Origin: Planotetraspora mira
GTDB lineage: Bacteria; Actinomycetota; Actinomycetes; Streptosporangiales; Streptosporangiaceae
Reading direction: 5' to 3'
Length of the DNA: 64,000 bases
Assembly (NCBI RefSeq): GCF_016863275.1
Contig: NZ_BOOO01000041.1
Span: forward strand, 1 to 64,000
Part shown: piece after piece, positions 13,118 to 22,853 of the stretch
Position numbering within the stretch: the stretch's first letter is position 1
How the letters are laid out: every line of letters starts with the position of its first letter
Program-made: the position numbers and the translations under genes
Notes under the pieces: generated by a model
The model's database searches: none
What the model was told of the DNA's origin: nothing
What the model saw: the letters and a program-made list of their open reading frames with translations, nothing else

Positions 13118-13495
13118 TCAGCGGGCCTTGTGGATGAGTGACGTCGTCAGGGCGGCGGCGGCGGGGATGAGGGTGAGAGCCACCAGGAACACCACGCCGA
13201 CCGGCCAGAGCCCCTGGTCGTCCTCCCCGAGATCCCTGATGATGGTGATCGCGAAATATACGAAGAACGGGGCGACGGCGAGCAGGCCCCACAGGATCCC
13301 CGTCCGAGGGACGAACCATCCGGCCAGACCGGCCAGGACCCCCAAGCCCGCGAACGCGAGCAGCAGGTAGGGCGAGTCGAAGAAGTCGCGGGGGGCGTCG
13401 GGGGCGATTTTCGGGGCGGTGAGGACGCAGACGGCCACCGCGACGGACCCCGCGATGACGAGGCCGAGGGCCCACACGAGGGCGGAACGGGGCAT
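13118..13495 (-). CDS. Small four-helix membrane protein of unknown function
   Basis: A protein of 125 residues with four predicted membrane helices, roughly at residues 5-27, 45-65, 70-90 and 100-120, and a short basic tail (IHKAR). ATG 13495 is chosen because AGGAG precedes it by four bases; an in-frame ATG 39 bases upstream lacks a spaced ribosome-binding site. No family is recognised. It lies downstream of the SARP regulator on the same strand, 81 bases away, and faces the methyltransferase gene. Confidence 0.6.
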   Translation of the reverse strand: MPRSALVWALGLVIAGSVAVAVCVLTAPKIAPDAPRDFFDSPYLLLAFAGLGVLAGLAGWFVPRTGILWGLLAVAPFFVYFAITIIRDLGEDDQGLWPVGVVFLVALTLIPAAAALTTSLIHKAR

Positions 13496-13576
13496 GGGAC
13501 TCCTAGGCGCGAAAACCTGCTGCTCAAGACTCATCCTGATCGACCATGGGCCTTTCCGGTTAGCGCGGAGATATCG

Positions 13577-16500
13577 TCATGACTGAGTAGATTGCGATGT
13601 CGGATCAGATACCGTCCCGGTGAGGGCGTCCACCTCCCGGCGTGCCCCGGCAGCCGCCACGAGGTCGCCGGCCGCGGTGTAGGCGTCGGCGAGGCTGCTC
13701 AGCGCGCCCGCGAGGAAGTCCTGCCAGCCACGGGTGCGCCAGAGCCGCACCGACTCCTCCAGATGGGTGACCGCCTCGCCGAACCTGCCCTCTGCCAGGT
13801 CGACGTCGCCGAGCACCCAGAGCGCGTCGGCCCTGTGGTGGGCCAGGTGATGGGAGCGGCTCAGCGCCTCGGCCGCCTCCGCCGCGGCCCTGGCCCGGGG
13901 GTCGCGGGCCACGCCGTAGAGCTTGGCCAGCGCCACCAGGCCCATCGCCTCCAGCAGCGGGTCGCGGAACTGGCGGTAGATGGCCAGCGCCTTGACCAGA
14001 TATTCCAGACCGGCCTCGAACTCTCTCGCATGGGCGTGCGCGAGGCCGAGGAACTGCAGCGTCGTGGCCTCGAAGCGCGGGTTGCCCAGCTTCTCGGCCA
14101 GCGGCAGGGCTTTCAGCAGGTGGACGATGGCCATCCTGATCTCTCTGGGCCCGTACGTCACAGCCATGCAGACGTGTGCCCTGGCCTGGCCGCTCATGTG
14201 GCCGCTGCCTTCCGCCAGGCGCAGCGCGATCTGCCCTGACCGAAGGCCCTGCGCCATGTCGCCCCTGGCCGCCTCCCCCCAGGCGCGCAGCACGTAGGCG
14301 TCGGCCAGGCCGCGATCCTCGCCCAGTTCGGTGAACATGGCGATCAGCTGCTCGGCCCCGTCGTACTGCGCGGCCATGGCCCCGCCGGTCTCCATCCACG
14401 TGGTGGCGTGCGTGAGCCCTCGAAGGATCATCGCTTCGCCGAGCCTGTTGCCCGACTTGCGGCAGGCCTCCAGTACGCGCTCGTGCAGGGCGCGCCAGTC
14501 GTCGAACTGCCCGCTCACGTCGAAGTAGCGTTCCACGCAGCAGGCCGTATCCCATGCGACCTCGGTCAAGCCCATCGAGCAGGCTTGGCGGATCGACGCG
14601 ATCAGCGCCGTCCGCTCGGTGTCGAACCACGCCATGGGGTCCTGCTCGGCCAGACCCGCCCAGGGAGCCCCGTCGGGGGAGTTCCAGCGAGGAGCGGTGC
14701 CGTGGATGATGGCGGACGAGGTGCCCTGCACCCTTTCTGTGGCACGTTCTGCCAGCGTGAGCCAGGCCCCGAAAGCCCTGCCCAGTGCCGCGGCCACGGC
14801 CTCCGGCTCGTCTTCGAGGCCGTTGCGCTCGCGGGCGTACAGGCGGACGAGGTCGTGGAACCGGTAGCGGGGCTGCCCCACCAGGTCCGTTCCGCTGACG
14901 AGCACGAGTTGCGTGTCCACCAGAGCCTCGACCAGCTCCTCTCCCGCGGCCACCGGCAGGTCGAGCAGCGCCCCGGCGACCCAGCCGGCGAATTCGGGCA
15001 CGTCCAGCGAGCCGAGCAGCCGGAACGCCCTGCGCGTGACGTGGTCGAGACCGACGTAGCTGAGCGCCAGGCTGGCCCTGACCGCGAGGTCGCCGGTGGC
15101 GAACTGGTCGAGCCGCCGCCGCTCATCGGTGAGCTGCCCGGCCAGGCGGGTCAGCGACCAGTGCGGCCGCGCGGCGAGGCGGGCTCCCGCCACCCGGACG
15201 GCGAGCGGGATGTGGTCCGACAGCCGGACGATCTCGGCCGCCGCGTCCGGCTCGGCCGCCACCCGGCCGGCCCCCGCGATCCTGGAGAGCAGTTGTACGG
15301 CCTGCTCGGGCAGGAGCACGGAGAGCTCGATCAGATTCGCGCCGGACAGCCCGTTCAGCCGGGACCTGCTGGTGACGATGACCGCGCAGCCGGGCGTGCC
15401 GGGGAGCAACGGGCGGACCTGCTGCTCGGAGGCGGCGTTGTCGAGCACGATGAGCATCCGGCGTCCCGCCAGCAGGCTCCGGAAGAACGCGGCCCGTTCC
15501 TCTGTGGTCTCCGGCAGCGTGGAGCGCGGCGCGCCGAGCGCGGTGAGGAAGGCCGCGAGCACCTGGGAGGGGTCGGCGAGGGAGGCCTCGGCGCCGTGCA
15601 GGTTCGCATGGAGCTGGCCGTCGGGATAGTGCCGCGCGACCTGATGGGCGGCGTGTACGGCGAGCGTGGTCTTGCCGACGCCGCCCATCCCCGTGATGAC
15701 GCACACACGCACGGGCCCGGGGCCCGGGGGAGGCTCCCTGCCGAGAAGGTCCGTCAGCCGGGCCAGGTGGTCGTCCCTGCCGGTGAAGTCGGAGATGTCC
15801 GTCGGGAGCTGGGCGGGGGTGACGTCACCTGACGAGACCGTGGAGGGGTCGACGGGGAGCGTGCCGGTGAGGATGGCCTGGTGCAGGTGGCGGAGCTCGG
15901 CACCGGGATCCAGGCCGAGTTCCGCGGCGAACACCCGGCGGGCGTCCTGGTAGGTGGCCAGCGCCTCCGCCTGACGTCCCGACCTGGCCAGGGCGAGCAT
16001 GAGCTGCATGCGTGGCCGCTCTCTCAGCGGGTGCTCGGCGACGAGCCCGATGAGCTCGGCGACGCACGCGGCATGCATCCCGCGAGCCAGGTCCGCCTCG
16101 ATCCGGTTCTCCAGCGCGGTGAGCCGTTCCTCTTCGAGGCGGTGGGCGTGTTCGCTGAGCCCGGTGGTGAGGTTCAGCCCCGCGTACGCGGGACCGCGCC
16201 ACAGCTCCAGAGACTCCCTGAGCAGCGCGGCGGCCCGTTCGTGGTCTCCCGCGGCGAGGGCGGTCCCGCCCTGTTCGGCAAGGATCTCGAACCGGCCGGC
16301 GTCCAACTCACCCGGATGGATGGACAGCACGTAACCGGTGCTGGTGCGGACGATCCGGTCAGGGCCCAGCGTCCTGCGGAGCTGGTGCACGTAGAGCCGG
16401 AGGTTGTCGGTGGCGGTTCGTGGCGGCGACTGCCCCCACAACGCCTCAATGAGAGTGGAAGGGGGCACGGCGCGTCCCATATGGCAGATGAGTTCGGCGA

Positions 16501-16585
16501 GCAGGGTGCGCTGCTTGCCCGCACCGAGGGGCAGAGGCTGGGCTTCGGCTGCGACGCGCAGCGGTCCTAGGACGGCGAACTCCAT
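13577..16585 (-). CDS. SARP/AfsR-family transcriptional regulator with BTAD, NB-ARC and TPR domains
   Basis: A 1002-residue regulator. Residues 1-90 form an OmpR/PhoB-type winged helix with the SARP pattern (GAGKQRTLLAELI, LWGQSPPRTATDNLRLYV). The bacterial transcriptional activation domain spans about 95-245. An NTPase follows with P-loop GMGGVGKTT near residue 298 and the downstream motif MLIVLDNA. Residues from about 640 are tetratricopeptide-like helical repeats. This is the AfsR architecture, known to activate secondary-metabolite and stress genes on ATP-dependent oligomerisation. ATG 16585 has GGGAG ahead of it; the frame extends upstream but without support. It follows the RHS gene on the same strand across a terminator. 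No biosynthetic cluster is nearby, so its targets are unknown. Confidence 0.9.
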   Translation of the reverse strand: MEFAVLGPLRVAAEAQPLPLGAGKQRTLLAELICHMGRAVPPSTLIEALWGQSPPRTATDNLRLYVHQLRRTLGPDRIVRTSTGYVLSIHPGELDAGRFEILAEQGGTALAAGDHERAAALLRESLELWRGPAYAGLNLTTGLSEHAHRLEEERLTALENRIEADLARGMHAACVAELIGLVAEHPLRERPRMQLMLALARSGRQAEALATYQDARRVFAAELGLDPGAELRHLHQAILTGTLPVDPSTVSSGDVTPAQLPTDISDFTGRDDHLARLTDLLGREPPPGPGPVRVCVITGMGGVGKTTLAVHAAHQVARHYPDGQLHANLHGAEASLADPSQVLAAFLTALGAPRSTLPETTEERAAFFRSLLAGRRMLIVLDNAASEQQVRPLLPGTPGCAVIVTSRSRLNGLSGANLIELSVLLPEQAVQLLSRIAGAGRVAAEPDAAAEIVRLSDHIPLAVRVAGARLAARPHWSLTRLAGQLTDERRRLDQFATGDLAVRASLALSYVGLDHVTRRAFRLLGSLDVPEFAGWVAGALLDLPVAAGEELVEALVDTQLVLVSGTDLVGQPRYRFHDLVRLYARERNGLEDEPEAVAAALGRAFGAWLTLAERATERVQGTSSAIIHGTAPRWNSPDGAPWAGLAEQDPMAWFDTERTALIASIRQACSMGLTEVAWDTACCVERYFDVSGQFDDWRALHERVLEACRKSGNRLGEAMILRGLTHATTWMETGGAMAAQYDGAEQLIAMFTELGEDRGLADAYVLRAWGEAARGDMAQGLRSGQIALRLAEGSGHMSGQARAHVCMAVTYGPREIRMAIVHLLKALPLAEKLGNPRFEATTLQFLGLAHAHAREFEAGLEYLVKALAIYRQFRDPLLEAMGLVALAKLYGVARDPRARAAAEAAEALSRSHHLAHHRADALWVLGDVDLAEGRFGEAVTHLEESVRLWRTRGWQDFLAGALSSLADAYTAAGDLVAAAGARREVDALTGTVSDPTSQSTQS

Positions 16586-16757: not shown

Positions 16758-19700
16758 CTAGCCGATGTAGTGCACCGCGAGGTAGTACTTGTAGGCGATG
16801 CCCCTGCAGGTCCCCTTCCAGAAGTAGTGCGAGCAGACGCCGTAGTAGAGGACGTAATAGAAGACGTTGTCGACCTCGCCCTTGCTGCGGACGTATCCCA
16901 TGTTGCGCAGGGCCAGTCCGTAGTCGTGCATCATGCACGCCCACCGGAAGTCGTACCCGAGCGGCTTGTCGGGGGCCTTCGTGCAGTAGTCGTACTTGAT
17001 TCCGCGGATCCACCAGCCCGCGGGGGTCTTCTTCCAGGAGACCCAGAGCCAACTGCCGTGATACCAGGCGTAGTTGACGCCGCAGTGGTTGAACGCGAAG
17101 TCCCAGAAACTCGTGCACCAGTACCACTTCTTGCCGTCCAGGTCGGCCTTGGCGGTGGGCGCCTGGGCGGCGTAGTCGTAGGCGTTGGCGCTGCCGCCGT
17201 CCACCGGGTCGGTCTGCAGGAACCGTCCCAGCTTGGGCTGGTAGAGCCGGACACCCATGAGCATGGTGCCGTCGGGGGTGTCGGCGGCTCGCTGGGCCGC
17301 GCCGTGCCAGCCGTACCGCGTTGAGGGCTGGCCCGGGCGCGGGTTGCCGAACTCGTCGTAGTCCAGTGCCAGAGGCACTCCGCCGACCACGGTGTAGACC
17401 ACGTTGATGTCGTCGTGCAGGTTGGTGAGCTGCAGCCGGACGTCTCCGGTCGCCGATGTGACGGCCGCGAGACCACCCGCGATCGAGGTGACGTTCCTGG
17501 TGACGGCGCCGGAGGTGGTGTCCTCCACGACCCACGCGGGGGTGTCGTCATCGGCGTCGAAGTGCTCGATCCGCGTGCTGACGTTGTTCCAGACGCCGCC
17601 CGACTGCTGCGCCAGCACGGTGGTGTCGCGCCGGAGTTGCGGGTCGAGGGTGTAGGACTGCCGCACCGAGCCCGAGGTCATCGTCTTGACCAGGTCGGTG
17701 TTGTAGTAGTCCACCTTCAGCCCGCCGGGCGTGGCCGTGGTGCGGCCGTAGGCGTCGTACACGTAGCCGGAGTCGGCCAGCCGGTCCCCGCCGTCGTAGA
17801 CGTGGTTCTCGGTGACCGCGCCCGAGCCGTCGCAGCCGCTCCTGGTCAGCGCGGTCCGGTTGGAGTTGGCGTCGTATCCGTACCTCCGCCGCGCGCAGGT
17901 CCCACTCACGGTGTCGTCCACCGAGCTGATCCTGCCCGCCTTGTCGTAGCCGATCTGCTGGGACGACAGCCCGTTGTGCGAGACCTGCTCACCGTGGATC
18001 GACCAGGTCACCGAGTCGTCGAGCAGCTTCACACCTGTGGCGTTCTGGTAGCCGCGCCAGGTCGGTGCGCCTGCCGGGTCCCTGGTGACGCTGTAGGAGA
18101 CGCCTCCCGGCAGGTTCTCGTGGACGACGGCGCCGTCCAGGTCGTAGGCGGCGGTGAAGCTGCCCGCGACCGAGTCGGTCATCGAGGTGAGCACGCCCCG
18201 GGGGTCGGCCGCGGTGTCGTAAACGTAGGTCACCGTGGACGGCGCGCCGTCCGTCTTCTTGGTGACCCGGTCGAGCGCGTCGTACTCCGCCCTGGTCACG
18301 CCGCCGCCGGAGTCGGTGTAGGAAACCTGCCGTCCCAGCACGTCGTACTCCCGTTTGATCACGGTCCCGTTGGACGCGCTGGTCTGCACCGCGTGTCCCG
18401 CCGCGTCGTAGGTCGTGGTCACCACCGGTACCGCCGTGCCCACACCGCCGGTGATCGAGGTCTGCACGACCCGGCCCCCGGTGTCGTAGGTCATGGAGGT
18501 GGTCCTGGTGACCCCGTTCGCCGTCTCGGTCACGGCGGAGACGCGGCCGCCCGCTTCGTAGCTGTAGACCTTGCTGACCAGTTCGGCGGGGTTGGAGCCG
18601 CTGTCGGAGATCGCAGCCTTCGCCTTCGATCGGCACAGCAGCCCGGCCCACTCGGGCTTGCCGCCGCAGGTTCCGGTGCCGTCGGCGGTGTAGTACTCGG
18701 TGGTGGTCGTGCCGGCGTCGGCGCCCGACGACTTCGGCATGGTGGTGCTGATCACCCTGCCGTCCGTGTCGTATCCGGTGGTCTTGGTGATCGCCAGACC
18801 ACCGGGATCGTCGACGGTCTTGGTGGCCTGGCCGGAGCTCCAGTCGTAGTACGTCTTGCTGACCCGGAGATCGGCGTCCGCCGTCCCGCCGGGCACCGAG
18901 GCGCCCACGGTGACGGTGGTGACCAGGTTCGCCACCTTGGCGTCCGCCGGCCGGCCCTCGTCGTAGGTGTTGACCGTGTGCTTCCTGGCGGCGACCTGGG
19001 CGCCGCCTGAGGTGATCAGGTGCAGCGGTTCGAGCTCGGACTCCTCACGCTGCCCGTCGGCACTGTAGGTGGTCTGCTCGGAGAGCAGCCGCGCCCGCTC
19101 CGCCGTCGGTGTGTTGAGCAGGCCGAGCTGGGTCAGGACGTTCGCCGCGTTCGGCCCCTGGCCCAGGGCGAGCGCCCGGTTGGCCGCCGAGAGTGAGAGC
19201 ACGGTGTTGCCCTGCCCGTCGTCCTGGCTGACGGATACGCCGCCGCCTGGCTCCGCGCGGTTGACCAGCTGCGCCGACGCGTCGAGGTAGGTGATCGTGG
19301 CGCGGCCGTAGTCGGACCCGGCCAGGCCGCCGCGTCCGGTGTTGTTCGCGGGCACCTGGTCGGCGGGGAAGATCGCGGTCGCGTCGGCGGGCGCGTCGGA
19401 CTGCCCCCACGTCGCCGTGGTCGCCGGGGCCAGGTTGTACGGCGCGCCGGCCCCGCTGATCGGGACGTCGTACACGACCGAGACGGTCGCGGTGCCGTTC
19501 GTCTCGCTCAGGGTTCCCGGGCGGAGCGTCGGCCGGGAGACACTGAGCAGCATCCCGTCGGACGCGGTGTCGGCGTTGCCCGCCCTGCCGTACGCCATGG
19601 TCCACGGCAGCTGTCCGGGCGGGGTGTACCGGTTCACCCGGCCACCCAGGTCGTAGTCGTAGCGGGTCTTGACGGTCGGGCTGTCGGGGTCCCACGTCTC

Positions 19701-22700
19701 GCGGAGGCGGCCCAGGTCGTCGTAGCTGTACACGGCCAGGCCCTGGGGCGTGCTCGCCCCGCCCTCCCAGAGGCTGATCTGCTTGACCTGCCCGGCCACG
19801 TCGCCGAGCTGCGCGCCGGCGGTCGTCGTGGTGGCGTAGGTGAACTTGATCAGCTGGCAGCCCTTGGGCAGGGAGGCGAGGTCGTCCACGTCGCAGTCGG
19901 TCTGCGAGGCGACCGACCAGGACGGGGCGATGATCTTGAGTGGCCTGGCCAGAGTCGTGCCGTCAGAGCCGGTCACCGGCTCCCAGATGAAGACCGTGCT
20001 GCCCTTGCCGCTCGCCGGGTAGGCGGCGCGGACCAGGTAGGTCGTCGCCGTGGGGTTCACCTTGGCGAAGACCGTCCGGTCTGCCGAGTTGACGTCGGAA
20101 AGGGTGTAGCGGTCGGTCGCCGCATCGAAGGTCAGCGTCAGGTTGGAGGCGTCCGGCTGAGGGGTGAAGGAGCCGTCGGTGTTCTTGGTGAAGGCCACTG
20201 AGGAGTCTTCGCCGCTGATCTCGACGGAGGTGGCCGAGGTGGGACGGAGCTGCGTGAAGGAGCCCTGCCCCGCCTGGGCGAGCCCGCTCGAGGTCCACTC
20301 GGTGCCGAAGATCGCCGCGACCCCCGGCAGGGACGATCCCTTGCGCGGGTCGCGCGAGGAGAAGGAGCGCATGAGCCCGACGCCGAACACGTTGACGTCC
20401 GTGGCCGCCATCTTGAACTCGCCGGTGAGCATGTTGACCACCCCCGGCCCGATGGGCTGGGTGGACGCGCCCTGCGCCTCACGGTCGACGACCAGGTCGA
20501 CCGAATCGGACGCCGCCGTTCCCGTCGAGGTGGTGAACTCGGCACGCACCTGGATCACGCCGTCCTCGGTGAGCGTGTGCGTGGTGTCCCAGATCAGCTC
20601 CGGAGAGACGCCTGAGGCCATCGCCACCGGCCAGGTGATCGCCGTGCCGTCCGACTTCTTCCGGACGTCCGCGGCGGGAACCTGGTGCCAGGTGTCGGTC
20701 TCGCCGCGCCGGTAGGAGAAGGTGACCGCGGTCAGTCCCGGGCTGCCCGTCGCGGCCAGCACGGTGCGGCGAGCGGTCGACTGCCCGTCCGTCGGCGAGG
20801 TGACGGCCGATGTGCCGGCGTTGAAGGCATACGTGGTGGCGGCCGACAGGTTGCCCGCCTTGTCCTTCACCCACGCCTTCAGGGTGTGCGGGCCGTCACT
20901 GCCGGGGGTCCAGTTGAGCGCGTACGGCGCGCCGGAGTTCGCCGCGGACTGCTGGGCGCCGCCGTCGAAGGACCAGAGCACCGCCGACACGTCGGTGCCG
21001 CCGGGCGTGATGATGAATTTGCCCGCCTGGCCGGATCCCTTCGCCCACCCGTCTTCGGGGTAGTCGTCGGAGGAGACGGCGGGAGCGGGCGGCGGAGTGG
21101 CGTCCACGGTGAAGGTGAACCAACTCGACCACGCGCTGTAGTCGGTGCCGTCGAAGGAGCGGACCCGCCAGTGATAGGAGGTGTTGGCGAGAGGCGTGCC
21201 CACCTTCCACGATCCGGTGGCGCCGGAGGCGATGTTCGAGACGGAGCCGCCGGTGACCTTGGTCACGTGGTCGGGAGTCCACACCTCGAAGTCGGCCCGC
21301 TGCGCCTGCGCGTCCGTGTCGCTGACCTTGGCGGACAGCGTCGGCTGGGGAGCGCTCACCAGGGCGGGACTGGCACACGTGGTGCACGGCGCGATCGCCA
21401 GGCTCGCGGGCGTCGCCGGGATCGTGTTGTAGGTGATGGAGATGCTCGGGTTGTTCTCGAACCGCTTCCAGTAGTAGTTGTCGGTCTCGCTGCCGGCCTT
21501 GACCATGAACGTGATGGACGTGCCGCCGGCGGTCACGGTGCTCTGCAGGGCGCTGGTCACGTCCCAGCCGACGACGGCCGCCGGGCAGGTCGAAGGGCCG
21601 CCGAGCCCGCTGGACGACCAGCCGTAGGCGACGTTCTTCGCGCCGATGGACAGGTTGGAGGCGGGCTGGTTGTTCCAGTTGGTGGAGGAGCCGACCGCGG
21701 CGGTTCTGTGCAGTTCGACGTTCCTGGCCGAGCAGGACCAGGCCCAGGTCTCCTTGATGTTGAACGTCGCGGAGATGATGTGCTTGCCCGTGCCCATCCC
21801 CGAGAAGCTCATGTTGAAGAACGAGCGCCGCTTGGCCGCGCCGGCGCTACTGGTGCCGGCCGTGGCGTCATTGGTGGAGTTGTAGTAGGCGCTGGTCGGA
21901 TAGGCAGAGTCGACGTACGTCCAGCCCGACTTGGCGGCGGTGAAGCTCGGGTCGATCGTCACGGGGAAGACGGTGGCGGGGTCGGTGAGCAGGGCGGCGT
22001 CAGGGGTGACCTTCAGGGCGCCGGCCGAAAGCCGCACGTCCATCTTGCTGCGCCTGCCCGCCTGCGCGCCGACGGCCGGGGTGGCGGGGTTGCGCGTCAT
22101 GGCCTTTTCCGCGGTGGCGTCCCACATCTCCGCGGCTGAAGTCGTGAACACCGGGTCGTCCTTGGTGTTCACGATCGCGACGTTGCCGTACTCGTCGGCC
22201 TTGATCTTGCCCTTCTTCAGGGAGGTGGCGAACGTCAGCGCCTTCAGCTTGGGATCGGCGGCCGCTGCGCGGGACTTGACCACGAGTTTCTCGGCGAACC
22301 CGTCGACATCTGCGGTCAGCACCAGGTCGACGCCGGGCAGCACCTCGGAGTAGGTGGCGGTCGCGCCGTTCAGCACCGGCTTGGGCAGAGCGCCGAGCGG
22401 CGAGTCCAGGGAGAACTCGGTGCCCTTCTCGGATGCGCGTACCAGCGGGCCCTGACCGCCGCCGGAGAAGCTGTAGGAGACGGACGAGGCCTTCGGAGCG
22501 ATCGACCCGTCCGGGTTCGCGACCAGCGTCGCGTCCGCGGCGGTCCACTCGTCGCCACGTTTCACCCGTACGGGGCGGTAGCGGTGCTCCTGAGTCACCG
22601 TGCCGCCGGGGTTGATGAAGTACTCGTCGGTCTCCGAGGTGAGTGACGTCACCTTGATCCGTTTGCCGCAGACCGCGGCGGCCAGCCTGGCGGAGATCTC

Positions 22701-22853
22701 GGTCGGCATCTCGTCGGGACAGGTCGCGGCCGGCGCCTGGGCCTTGGCCGAGACCGGCGCCGCTCTCGCTGGGACCGGCACCACGACAGTGGACACCAGC
22801 GCCAGGGCCATGAGGGCCGGTAACGCGGTCGGCCGCCTTGATTTCTTCAACAC
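16758..22853 (-). CDS. Secreted RHS/YD-repeat polymorphic toxin with C-terminal phospholipase A2 domain
   Basis: A 2031-residue exported protein. Residues 1-31 are a Sec signal peptide ending ARA. An N-terminal region includes a DNRLRE-like module (about 310-480), then fibronectin-III-like and Ig-like segments. YD repeats fill most of the second half. The RHS-associated core ends near residue 1895 with LGRFLQTDPVDGG, ANAYDY and DLDG, the usual junction before a variable toxin. The remaining 135 residues end in a prokaryotic secreted PLA2 fold: DYCTKAPDKPLGYDF, then RWACMMHDYG, closely following the Streptomyces violaceoruber enzyme. The His-Asp dyad is probably His1976/Asp1995, with Asp1955 as a calcium ligand. 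Phospholipid hydrolysis of competitor membranes is the inferred activity. GTG 22853 has GGAGG six bases ahead. No immunity gene is evident next to it. Confidence 0.88.
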   Translation of the reverse strand: MLKKSRRPTALPALMALALVSTVVVPVPARAAPVSAKAQAPAATCPDEMPTEISARLAAAVCGKRIKVTSLTSETDEYFINPGGTVTQEHRYRPVRVKRGDEWTAADATLVANPDGSIAPKASSVSYSFSGGGQGPLVRASEKGTEFSLDSPLGALPKPVLNGATATYSEVLPGVDLVLTADVDGFAEKLVVKSRAAAADPKLKALTFATSLKKGKIKADEYGNVAIVNTKDDPVFTTSAAEMWDATAEKAMTRNPATPAVGAQAGRRSKMDVRLSAGALKVTPDAALLTDPATVFPVTIDPSFTAAKSGWTYVDSAYPTSAYYNSTNDATAGTSSAGAAKRRSFFNMSFSGMGTGKHIISATFNIKETWAWSCSARNVELHRTAAVGSSTNWNNQPASNLSIGAKNVAYGWSSSGLGGPSTCPAAVVGWDVTSALQSTVTAGGTSITFMVKAGSETDNYYWKRFENNPSISITYNTIPATPASLAIAPCTTCASPALVSAPQPTLSAKVSDTDAQAQRADFEVWTPDHVTKVTGGSVSNIASGATGSWKVGTPLANTSYHWRVRSFDGTDYSAWSSWFTFTVDATPPPAPAVSSDDYPEDGWAKGSGQAGKFIITPGGTDVSAVLWSFDGGAQQSAANSGAPYALNWTPGSDGPHTLKAWVKDKAGNLSAATTYAFNAGTSAVTSPTDGQSTARRTVLAATGSPGLTAVTFSYRRGETDTWHQVPAADVRKKSDGTAITWPVAMASGVSPELIWDTTHTLTEDGVIQVRAEFTTSTGTAASDSVDLVVDREAQGASTQPIGPGVVNMLTGEFKMAATDVNVFGVGLMRSFSSRDPRKGSSLPGVAAIFGTEWTSSGLAQAGQGSFTQLRPTSATSVEISGEDSSVAFTKNTDGSFTPQPDASNLTLTFDAATDRYTLSDVNSADRTVFAKVNPTATTYLVRAAYPASGKGSTVFIWEPVTGSDGTTLARPLKIIAPSWSVASQTDCDVDDLASLPKGCQLIKFTYATTTTAGAQLGDVAGQVKQISLWEGGASTPQGLAVYSYDDLGRLRETWDPDSPTVKTRYDYDLGGRVNRYTPPGQLPWTMAYGRAGNADTASDGMLLSVSRPTLRPGTLSETNGTATVSVVYDVPISGAGAPYNLAPATTATWGQSDAPADATAIFPADQVPANNTGRGGLAGSDYGRATITYLDASAQLVNRAEPGGGVSVSQDDGQGNTVLSLSAANRALALGQGPNAANVLTQLGLLNTPTAERARLLSEQTTYSADGQREESELEPLHLITSGGAQVAARKHTVNTYDEGRPADAKVANLVTTVTVGASVPGGTADADLRVSKTYYDWSSGQATKTVDDPGGLAITKTTGYDTDGRVISTTMPKSSGADAGTTTTEYYTADGTGTCGGKPEWAGLLCRSKAKAAISDSGSNPAELVSKVYSYEAGGRVSAVTETANGVTRTTSMTYDTGGRVVQTSITGGVGTAVPVVTTTYDAAGHAVQTSASNGTVIKREYDVLGRQVSYTDSGGGVTRAEYDALDRVTKKTDGAPSTVTYVYDTAADPRGVLTSMTDSVAGSFTAAYDLDGAVVHENLPGGVSYSVTRDPAGAPTWRGYQNATGVKLLDDSVTWSIHGEQVSHNGLSSQQIGYDKAGRISSVDDTVSGTCARRRYGYDANSNRTALTRSGCDGSGAVTENHVYDGGDRLADSGYVYDAYGRTTATPGGLKVDYYNTDLVKTMTSGSVRQSYTLDPQLRRDTTVLAQQSGGVWNNVSTRIEHFDADDDTPAWVVEDTTSGAVTRNVTSIAGGLAAVTSATGDVRLQLTNLHDDINVVYTVVGGVPLALDYDEFGNPRPGQPSTRYGWHGAAQRAADTPDGTMLMGVRLYQPKLGRFLQTDPVDGGSANAYDYAAQAPTAKADLDGKKWYWCTSFWDFAFNHCGVNYAWYHGSWLWVSWKKTPAGWWIRGIKYDYCTKAPDKPLGYDFRWACMMHDYGLALRNMGYVRSKGEVDNVFYYVLYYGVCSHYFWKGTCRGIAYKYYLAVHYIG

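Follow-up and report, generated by a model that had tools for sequence, protein, structure and literature searches.

Among the secreted RHS proteins of Gram-positive bacteria, WapA of Bacillus subtilis carries a tRNase as its C-terminal enzyme, against which a cognate immunity gene exists. A phospholipase A2 (PLA2) linked to RHS repeats was already predicted as a class of polymorphic toxin in 2012, and the listing of this class, Tox-PLA2, gives RHS and ALF repeats and the type II secretion system (T2SS) and names no immunity partner (Zhang et al. 2012, PMC3482391). In RhsA of Pseudomonas protegens, RHS repeats are followed by a core with an aspartyl autoprotease pair, D1324 and D1346, 22 residues apart (PMC8765631). 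Solved PLA2s of group XIV include those of Streptomyces violaceoruber (1faz) and Tuber borchii (TbSP1, 4aup), and activation of TbSP1 involves removal of an N-terminal sequence (PMC11525133). Here, we describe an RHS-PLA2 gene of the soil actinobacterium Planotetraspora mira, found in the first 64,000 nucleotides of contig NZ_BOOO01000041.1 (the whole stretch is called the window). Its product, like WapA, would be a secreted Gram-positive RHS protein with a C-terminal enzyme, and differs from WapA in the nature of that enzyme. The class having been predicted before, the novelty of the locus is partial; a first-pass annotation had stated that no Gram-positive RHS protein delivering a PLA2 is known to have been characterised, and in agreement with this there was no experimentally studied RHS-PLA2 among the papers listed in searches of the open PubMed Central literature. 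We consider the product best explained as a secreted pro-PLA2 that is freed from its RHS stem by proteolysis, a reading to which we give a probability of roughly 55%.

The gene and the parts of its product are as follows.

16758..22853, minus strand: RHS-PLA2 gene, an open reading frame (ORF) of 2031 aa with a GTG start and GGAGG just upstream
21459..21920, minus strand: DNRLRE domain, residues 312-465 (NCBIfam NF033679, 66 bits, cut-off 34)
17361..20453, minus strand: RHS/YD repeat region, about residues 801-1831, five stretches of PF05593 RHS_repeat, boundaries approximate
17133..17360, minus strand: RHS-associated core, residues 1832-1907 (TIGR03696, 42.8 bits, cut-off 32.5)
16761..17132, minus strand: PLA2 tip, residues 1908-2031 (PF09056, with model and structural matches)
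16989..16991, minus strand: Asp1955, equivalent to Asp43 of the S. violaceoruber enzyme, which we take to be the calcium site
16926..16928, minus strand: His1976, equivalent to His64 of the same enzyme
16869..16871, minus strand: Asp1995, equivalent to Asp85, the partner in the His/Asp dyad

Both RHS repeats (PF05593, 61.3 bits) and the RHS-associated core (TIGR03696) are thus present, and the core ends directly before the PLA2 tip, where the first-pass annotation had also seen an intact core junction. That annotation had confined the PLA2 to 16758-17010; the placement was right, and the true tip is larger, since it begins near residue 1908 (nucleotide 17132). Judged by eye, the N terminus resembles a signal peptide, and Pfam and NCBIfam scans of the protein gave no match to PAAR.

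Several lines of evidence support the PLA2 assignment and its fusion to the RHS protein. The active-site motifs on which the assignment had first been based, namely CTKAPDKPLGYDF, ACMMHDYG and a later Asp, were all found where they had been placed, with Asp1955, His1976 and Asp1995 correctly numbered. PF09056 matched the last 130 residues at 49.6 bits and, in a search with the full protein, residues 1954-2031 at 43.9 bits (E 4e-11), both over the cut-off of 29.4; the match covers profile positions 28/29-110 only, leaving the first ~28 positions unmatched. When compared to PDB sequences with phmmer, the tip retrieved 1faz (E 1.4e-10), 7ygk (1.2e-9), 4aup (8.8e-8), and 8k1w (1.1e-3), and the structures most similar to an AlphaFold2 model of it (pLDDT 87) were four solved PLA2s, which places it in the group XIV PLA2 fold. 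The model puts His1976 and Asp1995 in helices next to each other (67-82 and 88-106), and in it the stretch before Asp1955 forms a short helix and beta strands. The residues D1955, H1976, D1977, and D1995, together with six Cys (1913, 1924, 1957, 1973, 2007, and 2016), are invariant in an alignment of 12 proteins (the window protein and 11 relatives, one of these a partial gene); the roles of the His/Asp dyad and of the Asp beside the His are taken from published work (PMC11525133). The tip shares the dyad, the Asp43 equivalent, four Cys and the helical core with 1faz and 4aup, and differs from them in an extra Cys pair (1913/1924), in the beta strands of its Trp-rich N-terminal part and in the RHS stem of ~1900 residues to which it is attached. 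The tail can therefore be identified, by sequence and model, as a predicted PLA2 domain with intact active-site residues. A catalytically inactive tip, keeping the PLA2 fold for lipid binding, would be in line with the Tyr (Asn in one protein) that replaces Leu after Asp1955, with the modified N-terminal part and with a PLA2-core substitution ratio above that of the stem (given below), but the Asp43 equivalent, His1976, Asp1977, and Asp1995 are kept in all 12 proteins, and we regard this explanation as very improbable.

Unlike the exchangeable tips of the usual RHS toxins, the PLA2 tip is constant in the relatives found. PF09056 occurs in at least 107 of 297 genomes of the window's family, an even draw from a larger group, and in at least 11 of the 297 (the window's own included) it is part of an open frame 2032-2115 aa long, referred to here as the long form; in a twelfth (G225), the long-form gene is cut by the contig end. 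Besides the window gene there are 10 full-length orthologs, at 56-89% identity. When the 297 genomes were searched with the 564 N-terminal residues, the 11 best matches were precisely the 11 full-length PLA2-tipped genes, all at 56% identity or more, after which identity dropped to 44% among the matches listed. No exchange of tips between orthologous stems was seen, as 11/11 of the closest stems carry the PLA2; this check covers those 11 and leaves out stems under 45% identity. Tip and stem distances were correlated (r 0.93 over 55 pairs; none of 2000 shuffles as high), indicating that the tip was inherited together with the stem. Comparison thus shows, at the level of sequence, a tip that is fixed in the long form and is not an exchangeable cassette, which is new. 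Tox-PLA2 as described resembles the window tip in its PLA2 fold (1kp4), RHS repeats, T2SS, phyletic listing in Actinobacteria and lack of a named immunity partner, the window tip differing in being fixed across orthologs and in falling within a clade of RHS-linked PLA2s in a tree of 81 domains (PMC3482391).

In three of five genomes of the genus, with that of the window among the five, the long form is present. A scan of named genomes, made with two peptide patterns derived from the long form and hence blind to the short form introduced below, found 13 relatives: three in Planotetraspora, two in Nonomuraea, one each in Microtetraspora, Microbispora, Rhizohabitans, and Sphaerisporangium, and four in Herbidospora. 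Planotetraspora belongs to the Streptosporangiaceae; the relatives recurring among the family genomes share the window's family. Among 396 genomes of the phylum, scored at up to 10 candidates per genome, the long-form type of tip was found only in the window's own, the seven other matches being of the stand-alone type. One of the protein alignments was built from sequences with trimmed starts.

How the tip might be released is suggested by the RHS core. The core holds an Asp pair, Asp1882 and Asp1904, with the same spacing of 22 as in RhsA, and both residues are invariant in 14/14 aligned rows. The window protein also shares RHS repeats and a core with RhsA, from which it differs in having no PAAR match, a signal-like N terminus and a six-Cys enzyme as its tip (PMC8765631). 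We infer the following course for the export and encapsulation of the protein, its cleavage, and the activity, calcium need and target of the enzyme. The gene product would be an exported proenzyme, consisting of a long RHS stem and a C-terminal, calcium-dependent PLA2 of the group XIV type, with the stem encapsulating the tip. Outside the producer cell, the aspartyl autoprotease of the core (Asp1882/Asp1904) would cut after the core and free the PLA2, which may then cleave phospholipids of foreign membranes or debris at the sn-2 ester. In this course the tip would be a permanent part of the protein and not an exchangeable cassette, and self-protection would be independent of an adjacent immunity gene.

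A second, shorter form of RHS-PLA2 provides a comparison with the same cargo. In the tree of 81 PLA2 domains, 35 RHS-linked tips lie on one side of a branch with support of 100/99.9; these are 14 long forms, 19 short forms (300-603 aa), one protein of 902 aa and one of 1243 aa, and the 14 long-form tips make up a clade of their own (support 100/100). The tree leaves out L006, L007, and L097 (second copies), L001 and L088 (the window), and L115 (no PLA2 motif recognised). The long form thus shares a PLA2 clade with the short RHS-PLA2s, a new observation; since long versus short is a single split on the tree, the locus counts that follow are not independent events. Of 11 short proteins scanned, ten had RHS_repeat over the Pfam cut-off (L114 was under it). 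None of the 11 showed the RHS core, which was likewise not found in the 902 aa form, the 1243 aa form or L047. In 13 of the 19 short loci the next gene downstream, on the same strand, encodes a subtilase.

L056:4467-8308, and likewise L098, L099, L100, L102, L104-L109, L111, L113: short, secreted-looking RHS-PLA2, followed by subtilase

The remaining six lack it, one of them (L101) having only a small related ORF. Three of the 13 subtilases were scanned and contained S8 plus P-domains, and a similar pair, with an S8 subtilase bearing FG-GAP, occurs on plasmid pSCL4 of Streptomyces clavuligerus (L116:6432-10876), showing that the short form is not confined to the window's family. The subtilase was found neither in the window nor in 13 long-form loci, and 46 control PLA2 loci (short loci, median 3.3 kb) showed none either; among the papers listed in searches of the open PubMed Central literature there was no RHS-subtilase pair. 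Perhaps the stem of the short form is removed by this partner protease. Tentatively, and with the odds somewhat against it, we suggest a single PLA2 lineage in which RHS stems of widely differing length serve as removable pro-regions and can be taken off in either of two ways: (i) by an aspartyl autoprotease core built into the 2000-residue form and (ii) by a dedicated proprotein-convertase-like subtilase encoded next door to most of the ~540-residue, coreless forms. In that case the warhead would be retained and the stem would vary, which inverts the polymorphic-toxin rule.

Within the same tree, the tip of L047, an RHS-PLA2 of 1620 aa (L047:3682-8544), groups with stand-alone enzymes and has a very long branch. 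It is an RHS protein with a stand-alone-type PLA2 tip, and is perhaps a separate, independent fusion.

Several observations weigh against release of an active enzyme from its stem. (i) The cut-site consensus of RhsA, PxxxxDPxG followed by W/L/F (PMC8765631), is kept only in part, with PxxxxDLDG followed by K/R in 14/14 rows; self-cleavage of the long form by its core therefore seems plausible from sequence and is not assured. (ii) The tip of RhsA is disordered or unfolded within the shell (PMC8765631), as is that of Tse15, which fits badly with a disulfide-held enzyme. (iii) The ratio of nonsynonymous to synonymous substitution rates (dN/dS) is 0.29-0.58 in the tip and 0.26-0.36 in the stem, the tip being higher in 7/8 pairs, and in the 82-residue PLA2 core it is 0.45-1.59 (on few changes) and exceeds the stem in 8/8 pairs, so that the constraint on the enzyme looks weaker than that on the stem. 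(iv) The core is absent from the 902 and 1243 aa forms and from the five checked among the six short forms without a subtilase. The first point also bears on a teneurin-like display, in which the tip would stay attached outside the RHS barrel and act tethered to its stem, with no release. The tip of teneurins is placed outside the barrel, with no cut in their C-terminal conserved region (PMC8765631); the loss here of DPxG and the next W/L/F agrees with such an arrangement, as do the six invariant Cys, which suggest a folded, extracytoplasmic tip. Invariance of both autoprotease Asp residues in 14/14 rows argues the other way, and we think display without release unlikely.

The genes behind the RHS-PLA2 gene bear on self-protection and on the purpose of the enzyme.

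13577..16585, minus strand: SARP-type regulator (Trans_reg_C, BTAD, NB-ARC, TPR), likely start at 16585
13118..13534, minus strand: small membrane protein of 138 aa, no Pfam family over cut-off

A SARP gene consistently follows the long-form gene, downstream and on the same strand, in 12/12 relative loci readable downstream (the contig ends in the thirteenth), which is a new observation. No terminator was found between the RHS and SARP genes, and the one sigma-70-like site there compares with 0.2 expected by chance. This conserved neighbourhood is also in keeping with a nutritional or developmental phospholipase under SARP control, secreted for lipid scavenging or for remodelling of the producer's own membrane and no weapon, which would likewise suit the lack of an immunity gene in neighbour clustering and the frequency of PLA2s in short ORFs of the family. 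However, SARP orthologs are also found without an RHS gene (e.g., at 83% identity in G266), and the long RHS stem is left unexplained by this account alone, which we judge improbable. In 4/18 short loci (L055, L099, L104, and L113) a related SARP-like ORF lies upstream, that of L055 being 37% identical to the window SARP.

A classical polymorphic interbacterial toxin would send its tip to competitors and guard its producer through a nearby-encoded immunity protein. The classing of Tox-PLA2 with RHS repeats among polymorphic toxins (PMC3482391), the RHS core just before the tip and the higher dN/dS of the tip all speak for it, as does the position of the small membrane protein in Rhizohabitans, directly after the RHS gene and before the SARP gene (L037:9868-10146; L086:10475-10753), where an immunity gene would be expected. 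This small membrane protein, which often adjoins the SARP gene, occurs in eight of the 12 relative loci that extend far enough downstream; the other four, all from Herbidospora, lack it. Among the matches listed, strong ones came from 17 genomes, nine of them without RHS-PLA2, with two further weaker matches in G114 and G256. In nine loci from genomes without RHS-PLA2, its ORF was recovered in five (L065, L066, L070, L071, and L073) and stood beside a SARP gene in one of these (L066). It was therefore rejected as a dedicated immunity gene. Another of the nine loci, L072, has an RHS-repeat ORF ~3.4 kb away.

Clustering of ORFs of at least 40 aa around the 14 long-form loci (up to 3.5 kb upstream and 4.5 kb downstream) gave no better candidate. 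Among the 14 largest clusters, those present in at least 11 loci comprised just the SARP gene and its overlapping frames, which were also the only ORFs common to all 13 loci readable downstream; the membrane protein cluster reached 9/13, and none of the clusters common to more than four loci held an upstream ORF. No dedicated immunity gene beside RHS-PLA2 was thus found by neighbour clustering, which reaches conserved nearby genes only. By comparison of these loci the long form appears, as a new feature, to be without a conserved small neighbour gene except the one rejected candidate. Together with the fixed tip and the missing immunity partner in the Tox-PLA2 listing (PMC3482391), this makes a classical polymorphic toxin a poor candidate in our estimate. 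The earlier proposal that RHS delivers the PLA2 as a weapon against rivals or hosts is accordingly supported for the PLA2 and its fusion, and for the delivery it stays a proposal. If a secreted pro-PLA2 is the correct explanation, Gram-positive RHS scaffolds can hold a fixed enzyme without an immunity partner, 'RHS' does not automatically mean 'polymorphic interbacterial toxin', and, with the long (core) and short (often subtilase) forms, release of the cargo could be tested directly in two related RHS proteins that share it.

Relatives of the tip were not found in viral contigs or phages, and plasmid records gave 11 matches, all under 60% identity; a phage or plasmid origin of the tip was considered and rejected. 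Two of the plasmid matches were opened and proved to be a stand-alone PLA2 (Nonomuraea gerenzanensis) and the short RHS-PLA2 of S. clavuligerus pSCL4. Rfam and tRNA scans of the window returned nothing. On the side of the RHS gene opposite the SARP gene, a DHDPS gene is found in two congeneric loci only, of ten examined. Finally, five loci (L048-L052) encode proteins of ~1400 aa with a C-terminal PLA2 that falls in a separate PLA2 clade, and the two that were scanned have DUF5005-type N-terminal matches and many fn3 domains.
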